Source: Fictibacillus arsenicus | Lineage (GTDB): Bacteria; Bacillota; Bacilli; Bacillales; Fictibacillaceae | DNA length: 64,000 nucleotides | Direction of reading: 5' to 3' | Assembly (NCBI RefSeq): GCF_001642935.1 | Contig: NZ_CP016761.1 | Span: 1,736,001 to 1,800,000 of the forward strand | Shown: positions 32,138-35,952 of the stretch, piece by piece | How the letters are laid out: each line of letters starts with the position of its first letter | Numbering within the stretch: position 1 is the stretch's first letter | Program-made: the position numbers and the translations under genes | The notes under the pieces: generated by a model | Database searches by the model: none | What the model was told of the DNA's origin: nothing | Seen by the model: the letters and a program-made list of their open reading frames with translations, nothing else

Positions 32138-32181
32138 AAAGCATGTTCTCTTCGATAGAGAGCATGCTTTTTTGTTTTTTC
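32138..32181 (+). terminator. Terminator of ftsAZ
   Basis: Stem AAAGCATG.TCTC / GAGAGCATGCTTT with TTTTTTGTTTTTT. Confidence 0.88.
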
Positions 32182-32272
32182 CATAAAAAAGCTGTTTACA
32201 TTCATTTATATTCTGCAACGTCACTAATTGGAATATAAATCGTTGTAAGGGACAAAAGGAGCTGGGTCAATC

Positions 32273-32404
32273 ATGGAAAAGAAAATAAAAGCTGTCGCTG
32301 TTTACTTTCGGTAAAGTCGTGAGGAGGAAACGGAAGAAACTCTGAATAGACAACAAGCTGACTCATTGACCTATGTGGAGTCCAATAAGGACTCCATTGT
32401 TGTT
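32273..32404 (+). pseudogene. Remnant of a serine recombinase (N-terminal fragment with nonsense codon)
   Basis: The ATG at 32273, behind GGAGCTGGGTC, starts MEKKIKAVAVYFR, then TAA, then SREEETEETLNRQQADSL. This resembles the start of serine recombinases/resolvases, whose catalytic Ser lies in YxRxSRE. Here the codon between R and S is TAA, one base from AAA (Lys). The frame goes on about 28 more codons and then runs into the antisense end of the AbiTii gene, so the rest is gone. A perfect 8 bp hairpin (TGGAGTCC / GGACTCCA, 32376-32396) lies inside. It probably marks the edge of an inserted island. Confidence 0.6.
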
Positions 32405-33292
32405 TTACATATTAATTTTACTAAGTTCGTGAAGTAAACCAGAAGCTAACAAACTTCCTGTAATTCCCTCAAGTACATTTCTAATAGTTTGTAATGATTG
32501 ATTTATAACCGAAGACTTTGGTTGAGTTGCTCCTAATTGTGTTGTAATTGTTGCAATTTCTGTTTCAACAGTTTGTTGCGAGTCCTCTTGAAGTCCAATT
32601 TGATTAAGGTTTTCTTTAAGGGTAGAAATGAAGGTGGAGACTTTACCCAAGTCCATTTCATTTATCATTGTTTGATTTGAATTTTGTGTGTTTTGTTGTA
32701 TCTGTACTCCAGTTGCATTTCCTATAACAACAGTATAATCATGTTTGCTTGCTTCTTGCTTTTCCTCTTTTGAGAAGCTTAGTCCTTCTCCCATAATGCC
32801 GTCCTCCTCTAGTTTCAACGACCATTCAAGAATAATATTTCTTACAATGTCTATCATTCTCTGAGCTTGAGATTTTCCGAAAGTAAGTCGAAACTCTGCT
32901 ATTTCATTGAGTAGTTTTGATAAGAGATTTTGTTGACCTTGTGGTAAATGGATAACTAAATATTCAGAATCACTTTTGACCAGGTCTTCAATTTCAGTGA
33001 TTGGTTGAGCAATTTTACATTTACTAACTATATCCAATATTTCCTCGTCTTCGATAATGACTGGAGACCAACCATGATAAGCATTAAACCACTGAATTTT
33101 TCCAACAACTTCTCTGTATTCTGGAATTTCATTTCGGGGCACTTTGAAACCATTCAATTCTTGATTAACCCATTGCTCGAACTCTATGATTTTTAATTTC
33201 CTTGCAACAACCATTGACTTTCTTAATAAATCGGAAATGTTTGAAGTTGACCTCATGGCTTCCATTTGAAGTTCTTGAACAATTGAACCCAT
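32405..33292 (-). CDS. AbiTii-domain protein, putative phage-defence component
   Basis: 295 aa, SD AAAGGGG 7 nt before the ATG. Residues about 5-170 resemble the AbiTii domain (named after the Lactococcus abortive-infection protein AbiTii): LLRKSMVVARKL, EFEQWVNQELNGF, IPEYREVVGKI and AYHGWSPVII are the family landmarks. A variable Gln/Asn-rich stretch (VIGNATGVQIQQNTQNSNQ, about 190-210) and a helical C-terminal region follow, ending in a small hydrophobic segment GSLLASGLL. It is the second gene of a minus-strand operon, 62 bp after the coiled-coil membrane protein. The biochemical activity is unknown. The domain call is from memory of the family. Confidence 0.75.
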   Translation of the reverse strand: MGSIVQELQMEAMRSTSNISDLLRKSMVVARKLKIIEFEQWVNQELNGFKVPRNEIPEYREVVGKIQWFNAYHGWSPVIIEDEEILDIVSKCKIAQPITEIEDLVKSDSEYLVIHLPQGQQNLLSKLLNEIAEFRLTFGKSQAQRMIDIVRNIILEWSLKLEEDGIMGEGLSFSKEEKQEASKHDYTVVIGNATGVQIQQNTQNSNQTMINEMDLGKVSTFISTLKENLNQIGLQEDSQQTVETEIATITTQLGATQPKSSVINQSLQTIRNVLEGITGSLLASGLLHELSKINM

Positions 33293-33354
33293 TGTTTATT
33301 CCCCTTTTCGCCTTGTTTTAATTGAAAAGAGAGAGGGGAGCGTTATGTCCTCTC

Positions 33355-34683
33355 TCACTTAGTTGATATAATTTGTGTTACTTTTTCAGCTATCGCTTGC
33401 AGCAATTGAGGATTAGAGCTTACAGTCTCAAGAGCATTTTGTTGTATCTGAGTTTGTCCTTGTTGAGTTTGTGTATTCGGTAATTCAACTCCAAAATACT
33501 TATCAACAAGACTTTGCTTTACCTTTTTTTGTTCCGTTTCTTCTAAATCTTTCAGATAAGGATCAAGTGAAGCGAGTTCCAATTCTATTTTTCTATTTCG
33601 ACGTTCTTCATTTCTATGGTTAGTAGCTTGTTTTGCACAATAAGTGAACAGGGTTATTCCTACACCAGTCAAGACTACTCTACTGATTAAAGCAGTCCAA
33701 GTCATTGTTCCTTCATGAAGAATAATGAACTTATAACCAAACCATAAAACACCTAAAATCGAAAGAATAGAAATAGCATTCCAAACAAAAGCTTTATTAC
33801 CTTCACTATTGGCAATTTTTTGATAACCTTGAGCGAGTCCTTTCATACTCATTATTCCAAGTATTTTTTCAGCCTTTTGGTTCATTTCTTTTATTTGGTC
33901 AAGCTCAGATTGTACTTTAGACTTCAAATCGTCAATTAATGTATCAAAAGACTGTTGTTGATTTTCTGTTTGTTGTTCAAAACCCTCATTTAATGTATCA
34001 AAGGACTCCTTTTGTGTTGTAACGAGCTTTTCAAAGCCATCGTTATATGAACTAAGATTCTCTTTAAAGTCATCTTCAGCTTTCTTCAAGAAGTCATTGA
34101 ACTCTTCATTCCTATTCGTTTGGGCATTTAAAAACTGATTCTGAAAATCACTGATAACTGAGTCAATCCTACCTTTTTGATTTTCGATTGCACCAGTTAG
34201 TTCATTTAGTTTTTCAGTATTAATTTTTAATGTTGCAGAGGTATCTACTGCTTCTCTTTCTACGTTTGACAAGTGTTGACCAACAGATTTTCTAAAAGAA
34301 ATTACGGAGCTTCTAATCCCTTCAATATCATCTGGGGTTTTTGGAACCAAGAATTGAGTGAAATAGGGTAACAAATTTTCAAGGTGATTGAATATATTGG
34401 TTAAATGCTGTTCGTTTTTATCATTCCTGAAATTTGTTAGATAACTAGCAATTTGATTAATAGTGTTATTCATATTTGTTAATGAAGTTGTTGAAACTAG
34501 CCACGGGTCAACCTTGTCCAAAGCTTCTTTCAAAAAGGTAAAGGTCTCAAGTATTCTACCTAACATTTGCAGTTTGTTTGTATTTAAATTACTAGAGTCC
34601 ATTTCGTCTAATAATTGTAATACTCTATCGATATTGGTGTATGTAGCATGTTGGGTTATTCTTTCCTCTAGTGCAATTGACAT
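33355..34683 (-). CDS. Coiled-coil protein with two membrane segments, partner of the AbiTii protein
   Basis: 442 aa from the ATG at 34683, preceded by AAAGGAGTG; the in-frame ATG at 34704 lies upstream of that SD. I do not recognise a named family. Helical N-terminal half; long coiled coil at about residues 125-270 with imperfect repeats around ESFDTLNEGFE / QSFDTLIDDLK; two membrane segments at about 298-322 and 330-350. A short cytoplasmic helical domain (SLDPYLKDLEETEQKKVKQSL) and a Gln-rich tail follow. It could act as a membrane-bound sensor or effector. Only its operon with the AbiTii gene hints at defence. Confidence 0.7.
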   Translation of the reverse strand: MSIALEERITQHATYTNIDRVLQLLDEMDSSNLNTNKLQMLGRILETFTFLKEALDKVDPWLVSTTSLTNMNNTINQIASYLTNFRNDKNEQHLTNIFNHLENLLPYFTQFLVPKTPDDIEGIRSSVISFRKSVGQHLSNVEREAVDTSATLKINTEKLNELTGAIENQKGRIDSVISDFQNQFLNAQTNRNEEFNDFLKKAEDDFKENLSSYNDGFEKLVTTQKESFDTLNEGFEQQTENQQQSFDTLIDDLKSKVQSELDQIKEMNQKAEKILGIMSMKGLAQGYQKIANSEGNKAFVWNAISILSILGVLWFGYKFIILHEGTMTWTALISRVVLTGVGITLFTYCAKQATNHRNEERRNRKIELELASLDPYLKDLEETEQKKVKQSLVDKYFGVELPNTQTQQGQTQIQQNALETVSSNPQLLQAIAEKVTQIISTK

Positions 34684-34710
34684 GAAATTCACTCCTTTAA
34701 ACAATCCATA

Positions 34711-34770
34711 TAATATTAATTATATAGCAAGTATCGATAGGAATGTACAAATATTGACAAAAACAAGTTC
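34711..34770 (-). promoter_or_regulatory. Possible promoter of the AbiTii operon
   Basis: On the minus strand TTGTAC, an 18 bp spacer and TATATA lie upstream of the 34683 start. The upstream segment is very A/T-rich. The 273 bp between this gene and the small ORF at 34978 holds no other gene I can support. Confidence 0.4.
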
Positions 34771-34977
34771 CGCTTATATCAAATGCTTGGAGAAGTGTTT
34801 TTGATTTTAGGTTGAAACTTAACCGTTGAGAATGACCACAACCTTTTTAGACTGTACGGAGTTTTCTCAATTGCAAAGAGCTTCTTTTTATTTTGTCACA
34901 ACGTTAACATCTTCTCGTTGGTTCAAGTAATGAGACAAGTCTGCTCATTAATAAACTTGAATAAGGAGTTGGTCAAC

Positions 34978-35139
34978 ATGAAAAATCAACATGAAAATTT
35001 TTTGGAGAATAATATAATAGAAAAGAACTTAACCAGTGAGACGAAGGTCGAAGGGATTGGGACGGTGAAAACATATGGAGAACTAAATGTGAGGAAACTT
35101 GTTGAGAGGTTACTTAAGTCAAAGTATATTGCCGATTGA
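34978..35139 (+). CDS. Small hypothetical protein of the island
   Basis: 53 aa from the ATG at 34978, with SD ATAAGGAGTTGG 7 nt before it and a terminator straight after the stop, so it looks like a genuine small gene. The frame is open further upstream to 34918 but without an SD. The protein is charged; the C-terminal half (VKTYGELNVRKLVERLLKSK) is predicted helical. I do not recognise it. It is divergent from the AbiTii operon and could be a regulator, an antitoxin-like partner or a leftover of the mobile element. Confidence 0.5.
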   Translation: MKNQHENFLENNIIEKNLTSETKVEGIGTVKTYGELNVRKLVERLLKSKYIAD

Positions 35140-35140
35140 A

Positions 35141-35170
35141 TGGAGACCAATATGGCTCCAATTTTTTTTG
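35141..35170 (+). terminator. Terminator of the small island ORF
   Basis: Stem TGGAG / CTCCA with ten-base loop, then ATTTTTTTT, 2 bp after the stop. Confidence 0.65.
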
Positions 35171-35193
35171 CATAGTTGTTGCAAAATACTCAT

Positions 35194-35567
35194 AGTTTGT
35201 TTTCATATCATTGTTGCATTTAAAAGTAGCTGATTTCCGCTCCAGGTTGCTCGCTTTTCACCTATCGAACGTTGAGCCTCCTGTCGCTTTGCGCCATTAG
35301 TTTCAATGAAGCATATGTGCTCCTGCGTCTCAAAGCAACTCTCAATGAAGCCAGCTTCCTCGTCGCATGCTTTGCGAGAAGAATATTCAGGTAGTTGGCA
35401 CGCTCGTCCCGTAGGACAAGGAAGGCAACGACCGCATTATATCGCACGAAGAAAATGTGATTTTTATTTTTAAGGAGTCGGGCAACCTTGCGCTTCCATC
35501 AACATGCATGTTAAGAGAATAAAAAAATTAAAACATTCAAAAGCAACAATCCTATAGAAAACAACCT
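35194..35567 (-). repeat. Interspersed MITE-like repeat, copy R5 (long, diverged)
   Basis: A reverse copy of about 374 bp, the longest here. Left GTTTTCATATCATTGTTGC, GCTGATTTCCGCTCCAGG; extra module ATCGCACGAAGAAAATGTG; right AGCAACAATCCTATAGAAAAC. Its centre has further unrelated or rearranged sequence (CATATGTGCTCCTGCG, partly like R3). It faces R6. Confidence 0.75.
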
Positions 35568-35582
35568 TTCTAAACTTCTTTT

Positions 35583-35820
35583 GGCTTTCTATACAAAAGG
35601 ATCATTGAAAAGTAGATTGTTGCTGCAGATAGATTTATGAAGTGCTTCATTGAATAGTTGATTGGAGTGTAAGGTGCGAGACTCCTGCGGGACAGGCGGG
35701 CAGGTGAGACACTTAAGAGTGAAACGTACAAATGTGGCTCACCGCCTGCCCCGCGGAAAGCGAGCACCTGAAACGGAAATCAACCACTTCCAAGAGCAGC
35801 AAGGATTACCAAAACAGAGC
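35583..35820 (+). repeat. Interspersed MITE-like repeat, copy R6
   Basis: A forward copy with AGTTGATTGGAGTG, GCGAGACTCCTGCGGGACAG, a hairpin CAGGTGAGACAC...GTGGCTCACCGCCTG, and the right end CCAAGAGCAGCAAGG. The central hairpin (AAGAGTGAAACGTACAAATG) is shared with R11, so R6 and R11 are a subfamily. With R5 it forms a large inverted pair just upstream of the spoIIG promoter region. Confidence 0.8.
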
Positions 35821-35826
35821 GTTTAA

Positions 35827-35952
35827 TTTTGTCATATTCTTGTCCCAAAAACGTATATCTAACATATAAGCTTTTTTGACAAAAAAAGAGAAAATAAGAA
35901 CAATACTTCTCTCATAAACTGACAGACTTTCAAACAACCTATACGTTATACT
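35827..35952 (+). promoter_or_regulatory. spoIIG-type promoter with Spo0A-box-like sites
   Basis: CTGACA at 35919-35924 and TATACT at 35947-35952 are separated by 22 bp, the unusual spacing known for the Spo0A-activated spoIIG promoter of B. subtilis. Upstream lie TTTTGTCAT (35827) and the inverted TTTTTGACAAAAA (35874-35886), both like 0A boxes. The spoIIGA start is 30 bp downstream. Confidence 0.7.

Follow-up and report, generated by a model that had tools for sequence, protein, structure and literature searches.

An AbiTii-AbiTi fusion gene preceded by a gene of a rare coiled-coil membrane protein family in Fictibacillus arsenicus

A ~3.0-kb insertion in a 64,000-nucleotide stretch of Fictibacillus arsenicus DNA (contig NZ_CP016761.1; "the window") carries two genes. 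Judged by profile matches, the product of one of them, P0001 (295 aa), is a natural AbiTii-AbiTi fusion. The product of the other, P0002 (442 aa), belongs by sequence comparison to a distinct, rare, and coherent family, referred to here as P2. It is possible, with somewhat less than an even chance, that P2 is a membrane sensor or scaffold with exchangeable effectors, that the AbiT fusion is the effector here, and that the island is a phage-defence module.

The insertion lies in the interval between ftsZ and spoIIGA; these names, like those of ftsA and sigE nearby, are labels that we gave to the genes from their sequences. Its features are as follows.
32181..35198, no strand: insertion holding both genes, ~3.0 kb, ftsZ/spoIIGA interval, delimited by blastn against 7 genus-mates
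32273..32404, plus strand: possible remnant of a serine recombinase N terminus, recognised by eye
32405..33292, minus strand: 295 aa gene (P0001), ATG start, AbiTii-AbiTi fusion by profile
33355..34683, minus strand: 442 aa gene (P0002), ATG start, P2-family membrane protein by sequence
34918..35139, plus strand: 73-codon ORF at the far end of the insert, an uncertain gene

Both ORFs are intact and lie 62 bp apart on the minus strand, with the 442 aa gene upstream and the 295 aa gene downstream. Direct reading finds the SD-like sequences AAAGGAG and AAAAGGGG before the ATGs of the 442 aa and 295 aa genes, respectively, as the original prediction had described for this pair. An alternative, longer TTG start of the 442 aa gene would give 449 aa. 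By blastn, the insert is unmatched in all seven genus-mates used for comparison (L004 to L010, from 17 other genomes of the genus that were found). In L004, homology on the ftsZ side ends at about position 32180 of the window and restarts at about 35199, with ~21 bp in place of the ~3.0 kb. In addition, none of the 33 other genomes of the family encodes the 442 aa protein. The lack of the pair at the ftsZ-spoIIGA site, as described in the original prediction, is confirmed for the relatives compared.

An AbiTii region in the N-terminal part of the 295 aa product had been predicted from four landmark strings. All four are present, and residues 3 to 185 match AbiTii in Pfam (PF18864; E value, 1.8e-40; 139.6 bits against a cut-off of 27.6) and in PADLOC (E value, 1.5e-44). 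P0001 is the sole PF18864 match in the 4.06-Mb genome. The prediction missed the C-terminal half, residues 188 to 293, which matches AbiTi in PADLOC over model positions 6 to 113 of 114 (E value, 3.6e-14). Because both halves lie within a single 295 aa ORF, this is a fused variant, and the two-component form with separate abiTi and abiTii genes is excluded. The identity of both halves is that of profile matches. The protein is arranged as follows.
Residues 3-185: AbiTii alpha+beta domain
Residues ~184-212: QIQQN-type tag or linker
Residues ~212-293: AbiTi-like four-helix domain

In the AlphaFold model (mean pLDDT, 79.5), the N-terminal alpha+beta and C-terminal four-helix domains are both confident, and the linker at residues 184 to 211 falls below 50. 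All 9 aligned rows share a glutamate, E45, which may be the conserved glutamate of the AbiTii domain referred to in PMC3710099. Neither Pfam nor PADLOC matched the C-terminal half to a HEPN family. Relatives of P0001 occur in 123 plasmid records, with coverage of at least 80% at a single place in 66 of them, and no match was found in phage records.

AbiT has reportedly been known since 2002, and both halves of lactococcal AbiT are present in P0001 by profile; the differences are that P0001 joins them in one chain and is preceded by a P2 gene for a coiled-coil protein with two transmembrane (TM) segments. The fused proteins of Brevibacillus (L017), Vibrio (L018), and L067 likewise match both profiles and have a linker of a similar QIQQN type, but their loci have no P2-family neighbour, whereas the window locus has one. 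According to excerpts of PMC3710099, AbiTii is a named abortive-infection family, and the AbiTii-HEPN proteins c2405 and Ymh carry an N-terminal AbiTii module before another C-terminal domain. P0001 is like them in its N-terminal AbiTii and unlike them in its C-terminal half, which matches AbiTi. Fusions of an AbiTii module with other domains are hence already in print, as those excerpts indicate. In the portions of the AbiTii literature consulted, neither an AbiTii-AbiTi fusion nor a shared tag nor a P2-like partner is mentioned, and those of the AbiT literature offer no settled mechanism.

The 442 aa product has the following architecture.
Residues 2-111: helical head
Residues 117-274: stalk helix of ~158 residues
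Residues about 303-322 and 331-350: predicted TM hairpin
Residues about 368-378: conserved segment with ELELASLDPYL
After the conserved segment: variable Q-rich tail, helical in the model

The head, stalk, TM hairpin, and helical tail appear in a structure model with a mean pLDDT of 74.9 and a pTM of 0.31, and hydropathy peaks at residues 304 to 322 and 331 to 349. Peaks occur at both TM places in all 16 aligned P2 members, the second being weak (1.15 to 1.4) in several. Model and relatives thus agree with the coiled coil and two membrane helices of the original prediction, which had also described internal repeats; these are real but small, consisting of one 35-nt pair in the gene, 80% identical and 54 nt apart. 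The protein was correctly called unrecognised, as it reaches no curated family cut-off in Pfam, PADLOC, NCBIfam, or PHROGs and gives weak matches only. We rejected relationships to Zorya, apolipoprotein, and exonuclease VII, for which the Pfam matches are below curated cut-offs and mostly cover the coiled coil; the matches in PADLOC and to PDB sequences also fall there. P0002 does resemble Zorya ZorA in having membrane segments and a long coiled coil, with a weak PADLOC match (7.6e-5; best stretch, residues 131 to 270). In contrast to ZorA, it has no MotA/ExbB/TolQ match among the 16 Pfam families listed at an E value of ≤10, and its immediate neighbour is an AbiT gene. The TM segments of ZorA precede the coiled coil, whereas the hairpin of P0002 follows it. 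SLATT is also absent from those 16 families; a SLATT_1 match below the cut-off (E value, 0.038) occurs only in a distant phage relative, L079.

We defined the P2 family by the conserved TM hairpin and the ELELASLDPYL segment after a coiled coil, all of which P0002 has. The family comprises 21 loci across four bacterial phyla and phage: the window, 12 genome contigs, 3 plasmids (all three plasmid records with P0002 relatives), 1 viral contig, 3 genomes, and a Microcystis phage. An alignment of 16 rows has invariant A291, W329, L373, P375, Y376, K389, and F397. At an E value of <1e-70, P2 was found in 3 of the 398 genomes searched in the class (the genome under study, G564, and G532) and, by a single-sequence search, in 2 of 398 genomes of the phylum, its own included. 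At an E value of ≤1e-3, the class search had returned 42 of 398 genomes, of which 39 were dropped as partial matches (best, 6.8e-7), mostly to the coiled coil. Among 321 genomes of the class of G813, P2 was found in G813 only. In a tree of the family, the window, L019, and L020 group together, with an unresolved branching order. A distant relative is that of Microcystis phage vB_MaeS-yong1 (L079, 4407 to 5654), with 28% identity over 42% of the query; this gene is annotated as apolipoprotein A-I and has recombinase and regulatory genes nearby. The literature on anti-phage coiled-coil, two-TM, TIR, and SIR2 proteins, in the portions available, holds nothing evidently on this family.

The genes that adjoin P2 are varied. 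The P2 protein of Aquibacillus (L019) is 55.8% identical to P0002, and the next gene, 40 bp further on, encodes an AbiTii-AbiTi fusion with 54.5% identity to P0001. The AbiT and P2 pair hence exists in two genera in the same order, Aquibacillus being the only recurrence, and AbiTii adjoins P2 in 2 of 21 P2 loci. Elsewhere, the gene downstream of P2, on the same strand and 85 to 389 bp past it, matches a TIR effector (PDLC00733; 4.2e-8) in L011, SIR2/ThsA (a SIR2/STALD protein; 2.4e-13) in L029, PDC-S64 (2.6e-16) in L026, NERD (3.3e-23) in L020, Beta_protein (1e-17) in L023, and PDC-S11 (1.5e-180), within a type I restriction-modification (R-M) operon, in L016. The L026 protein also has a DUF3644 match below the cut-off and a stretch, R-N-N-I-E-H, that is HEPN-like by eye. 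At two Vibrionaceae loci, P2 belongs to a type I R-M operon, where it directly follows hsdS and overlaps it by 8 bp.
L016, 4986-6260: P2 after hsdS (annotated)
L028, 6848-8119: P2 after hsdS (hsdS recognised by eye)

A recognisable defence partner is present in 9 of 21 P2 loci, and 12 have none. The closest relative of P0002, in L020 (65% identical, N-terminally truncated), has no AbiTii beside it; nor have the intact P2 gene of Halobacillus (L021) and the frameshifted one of L022. Upstream of P2, L024 has instead a nuclease-like gene (PDDEXK_7, below the cut-off) and L025 a divergent DNA methyltransferase gene. P2 is the upstream gene in all seven pairs outside R-M operons (the window, L019, L011, L020, L023, L026, and L029), which were chosen mainly by inspection downstream.

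A survey of gene neighbourhoods had been proposed with the original prediction, and several P2 neighbours do match defence models, but the excess is not significant. PADLOC matches at an E value of ≤1e-5 were found for 6 of 17 next-downstream ORFs, 2 of 11 nearest or near upstream genes (DrmD in L063 and the methyltransferase in L025), and 1 of 8 distinct distal genes (pVip). Fisher's test of downstream against upstream plus distal genes gave a P value of 0.17, or 0.34 when hsdS of both L016 and L028 was also counted upstream. Of the 20 P2 loci besides the window, the downstream set covers 17, all but L015, L028, and L079. All six hits are among the first eight genes scanned (L011, L016, L019, L020, L021, L023, L026, and L029), which on their own would give 6 of 8 and a P value of 0.006, a selected figure. 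The other nine (L014, L022, L024, L025, L027, L030, L031, L062, and L063) include some ORFs that are distant, on the opposite strand, or doubtful. The modular reading is drawn from the variety of P2 partners, not their count. The same variety makes plausible the earlier suggestion that one protein senses and the other acts.

The pairing was also examined from the AbiTii side. None of 24 other AbiTii loci, 15 genomic or plasmid and 9 viral, with fused, short, and other types taken together, has P2 in the flank examined; flanks were ~1.5 kb or less for loci from the genome search, and some loci stop at a contig end. The plasmid loci read for neighbours were L017 and L018 only. All four loci scanned for a fused AbiTi half (L017, L018, L067, and L068) have one. 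Conversely, AbiTii was found anywhere in only one of eight other P2-bearing genomes scanned, that of Aquibacillus. The AbiT/P2 pair is thus recurrent but uncommon from both sides. The recurrence that the original prediction had raised as a condition holds for a second genus and no further; since AbiTii adjoins so few of the P2 loci and P2 none of the 24 AbiTii loci, we conclude that AbiTii with P2 is one combination of several rather than a fixed system.

Separate AbiT halves occur in a viral contig, L083 (3671 to 4981), where a 218 aa protein with an AbiTi match at residues 104 to 217 is followed by a 214 aa AbiTii protein; we did not find a two-TM coiled-coil protein beside them. The beginning of the AbiTi domain recurs in the AbiTii tail over 23 residues (NxFYGxIxxSQIQQ...), with a score reached in 0 of 2,000 shuffles, and the PADLOC AbiTi model also matches that tail (E value, 0.0013). 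By both measures, then, the two separate halves have a tag in common. In the fusion P0001, one such tag sits between both domains, and the 23-residue L083 tag is, from its sequence, a candidate docking motif joining AbiT halves. A second AbiTii type, of ~225 to 232 aa, is followed by a 66 to 73 aa protein with a hydrophobic stretch that is probably a TM segment.
L069, 1157-2070: short AbiTii and small TM-type protein
L071, 1171-2073: short AbiTii and small TM-type protein
L072, 1166-2064: short AbiTii and small TM-type protein
L073, 1184-2073: short AbiTii and small TM-type protein

The two proteins have in common a GDNNKIKNSxIG-like tag, unlike the QIQQN type. Tag sharing was tested for four of the five such loci, all but L070, and was found in each of the four pairs (0 of 2,000 shuffles each). 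The shared GDNNKIKNSxIG-type sequences suggest that AbiTii docks at the membrane by its tag. We take the shared AbiT tags to recall bacterial amyloid signalling motifs. A docking tag common to P0001 and P0002, both of which contain QIQQN, was considered and rejected: 400 of 2,000 shuffles reached the score with the P0002 tail, and 256 of 500 did so with the whole of P0002. For the Aquibacillus pair, the figure was 45 of 2,000.

Under the defence-module reading, the TM hairpin would anchor P0002 in the membrane and leave its head, stalk, and tail on the cytoplasmic side (a weak charge argument), and the head and stalk would serve as the sensor of, or a scaffold for, a change brought about by phage. 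The AbiT fusion would be a cytoplasmic effector that, once released or clustered, stops the infected cell; in other P2 members, the TIR-like, SIR2, HEPN-like, NERD, or Beta-protein gene would fill the effector slot. The AbiTii and AbiTi matches, the Aquibacillus pair, the defence-type genes downstream of other P2 genes, the coherence of the family, and the toxicity of an AbiTi from Clostridium catus (PMC3985639) argue for this reading. Against it stand the nonsignificant neighbour excess, the loci without AbiTii (L020 and L021), the 12 partnerless loci, the 24 of 24 AbiTii loci without P2, the genes found upstream instead in L024 and L025, and the want of a docking tag shared by P0001 and P0002. 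We graded as equally likely that the two genes are independent passengers of a defence island, the fusion being a complete one-gene AbiT and P2 a separate solo gene, with a defence or mobile-element function, that shares its transcript. The AbiTii loci without P2 (fused in all four of those scanned), the P2 loci without a recognisable partner, the rarity of AbiTii in P2-bearing genomes, the P2 genes of the Microcystis phage and of a viral contig, neither with a recognisable effector, and the lack of a significant excess all fit independent passengers. However, order, strand, and short spacing are the same in two genera although both proteins have diverged to ~55%, and P2 is upstream in seven of seven pairs, albeit pairs picked mainly by looking downstream.

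A toxin with its neutraliser, in which P0002 would keep a growth-stopping AbiT sequestered at the membrane until phage infection breaks the hold, is improbable. According to excerpts of PMC3985639, C. catus AbiTi is toxic in Escherichia coli and its AbiTii gave no neutralisation, and P2 is placed upstream; yet lactococcal AbiTi and AbiTii were nontoxic in the same screen, and AbiTii genes, among them fused ones, are maintained in the absence of P2. Least probable, and very unlikely, is that the genes are nondefence cargo of a degraded mobile element, serving its maintenance or transfer. The recombinase-like remnant at 32273 to 32404 would fit such cargo, as would the location of P2 genes, on plasmids and close to genes resembling those of transposases or recombinases, in L014, L015, and L062 (by eye in L014 and L062), whereas the abortive-infection assignment of AbiTii (PMC3710099) and the P2 neighbours that match defence models do not. 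Returning to the defence-module reading, its extension to the family as a whole, namely, that P2 is an undescribed membrane sensor or scaffold family of a modular, effector-swapping defence system, with an interchangeable downstream effector or embedding in a type I R-M operon, is tentative and stands at about one chance in three. Should exchangeable effectors prove to share P2 as their sensor, bacterial immunity would gain a new organising component. A one-chain AbiT, a membrane partner, and a tag shared by separate halves open the way to direct experiments on joining and triggering.

The putative recombinase remnant translates as MEKKIKAVAVYFR*SREEETEETLNRQQADSL, with a stop after 13 codons and the remainder of the gene absent. 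The 30 aa past the stop match nothing in Pfam or among PDB sequences; since these profile and sequence searches were empty, the recombinase reading is by eye only. The 73-codon ORF has no Pfam match above the cut-off. Past the insert, the ftsZ-spoIIGA spacer at positions 35199 to 35830 of the window matches genus-mates in both orientations and is perhaps a small interspersed repeat.
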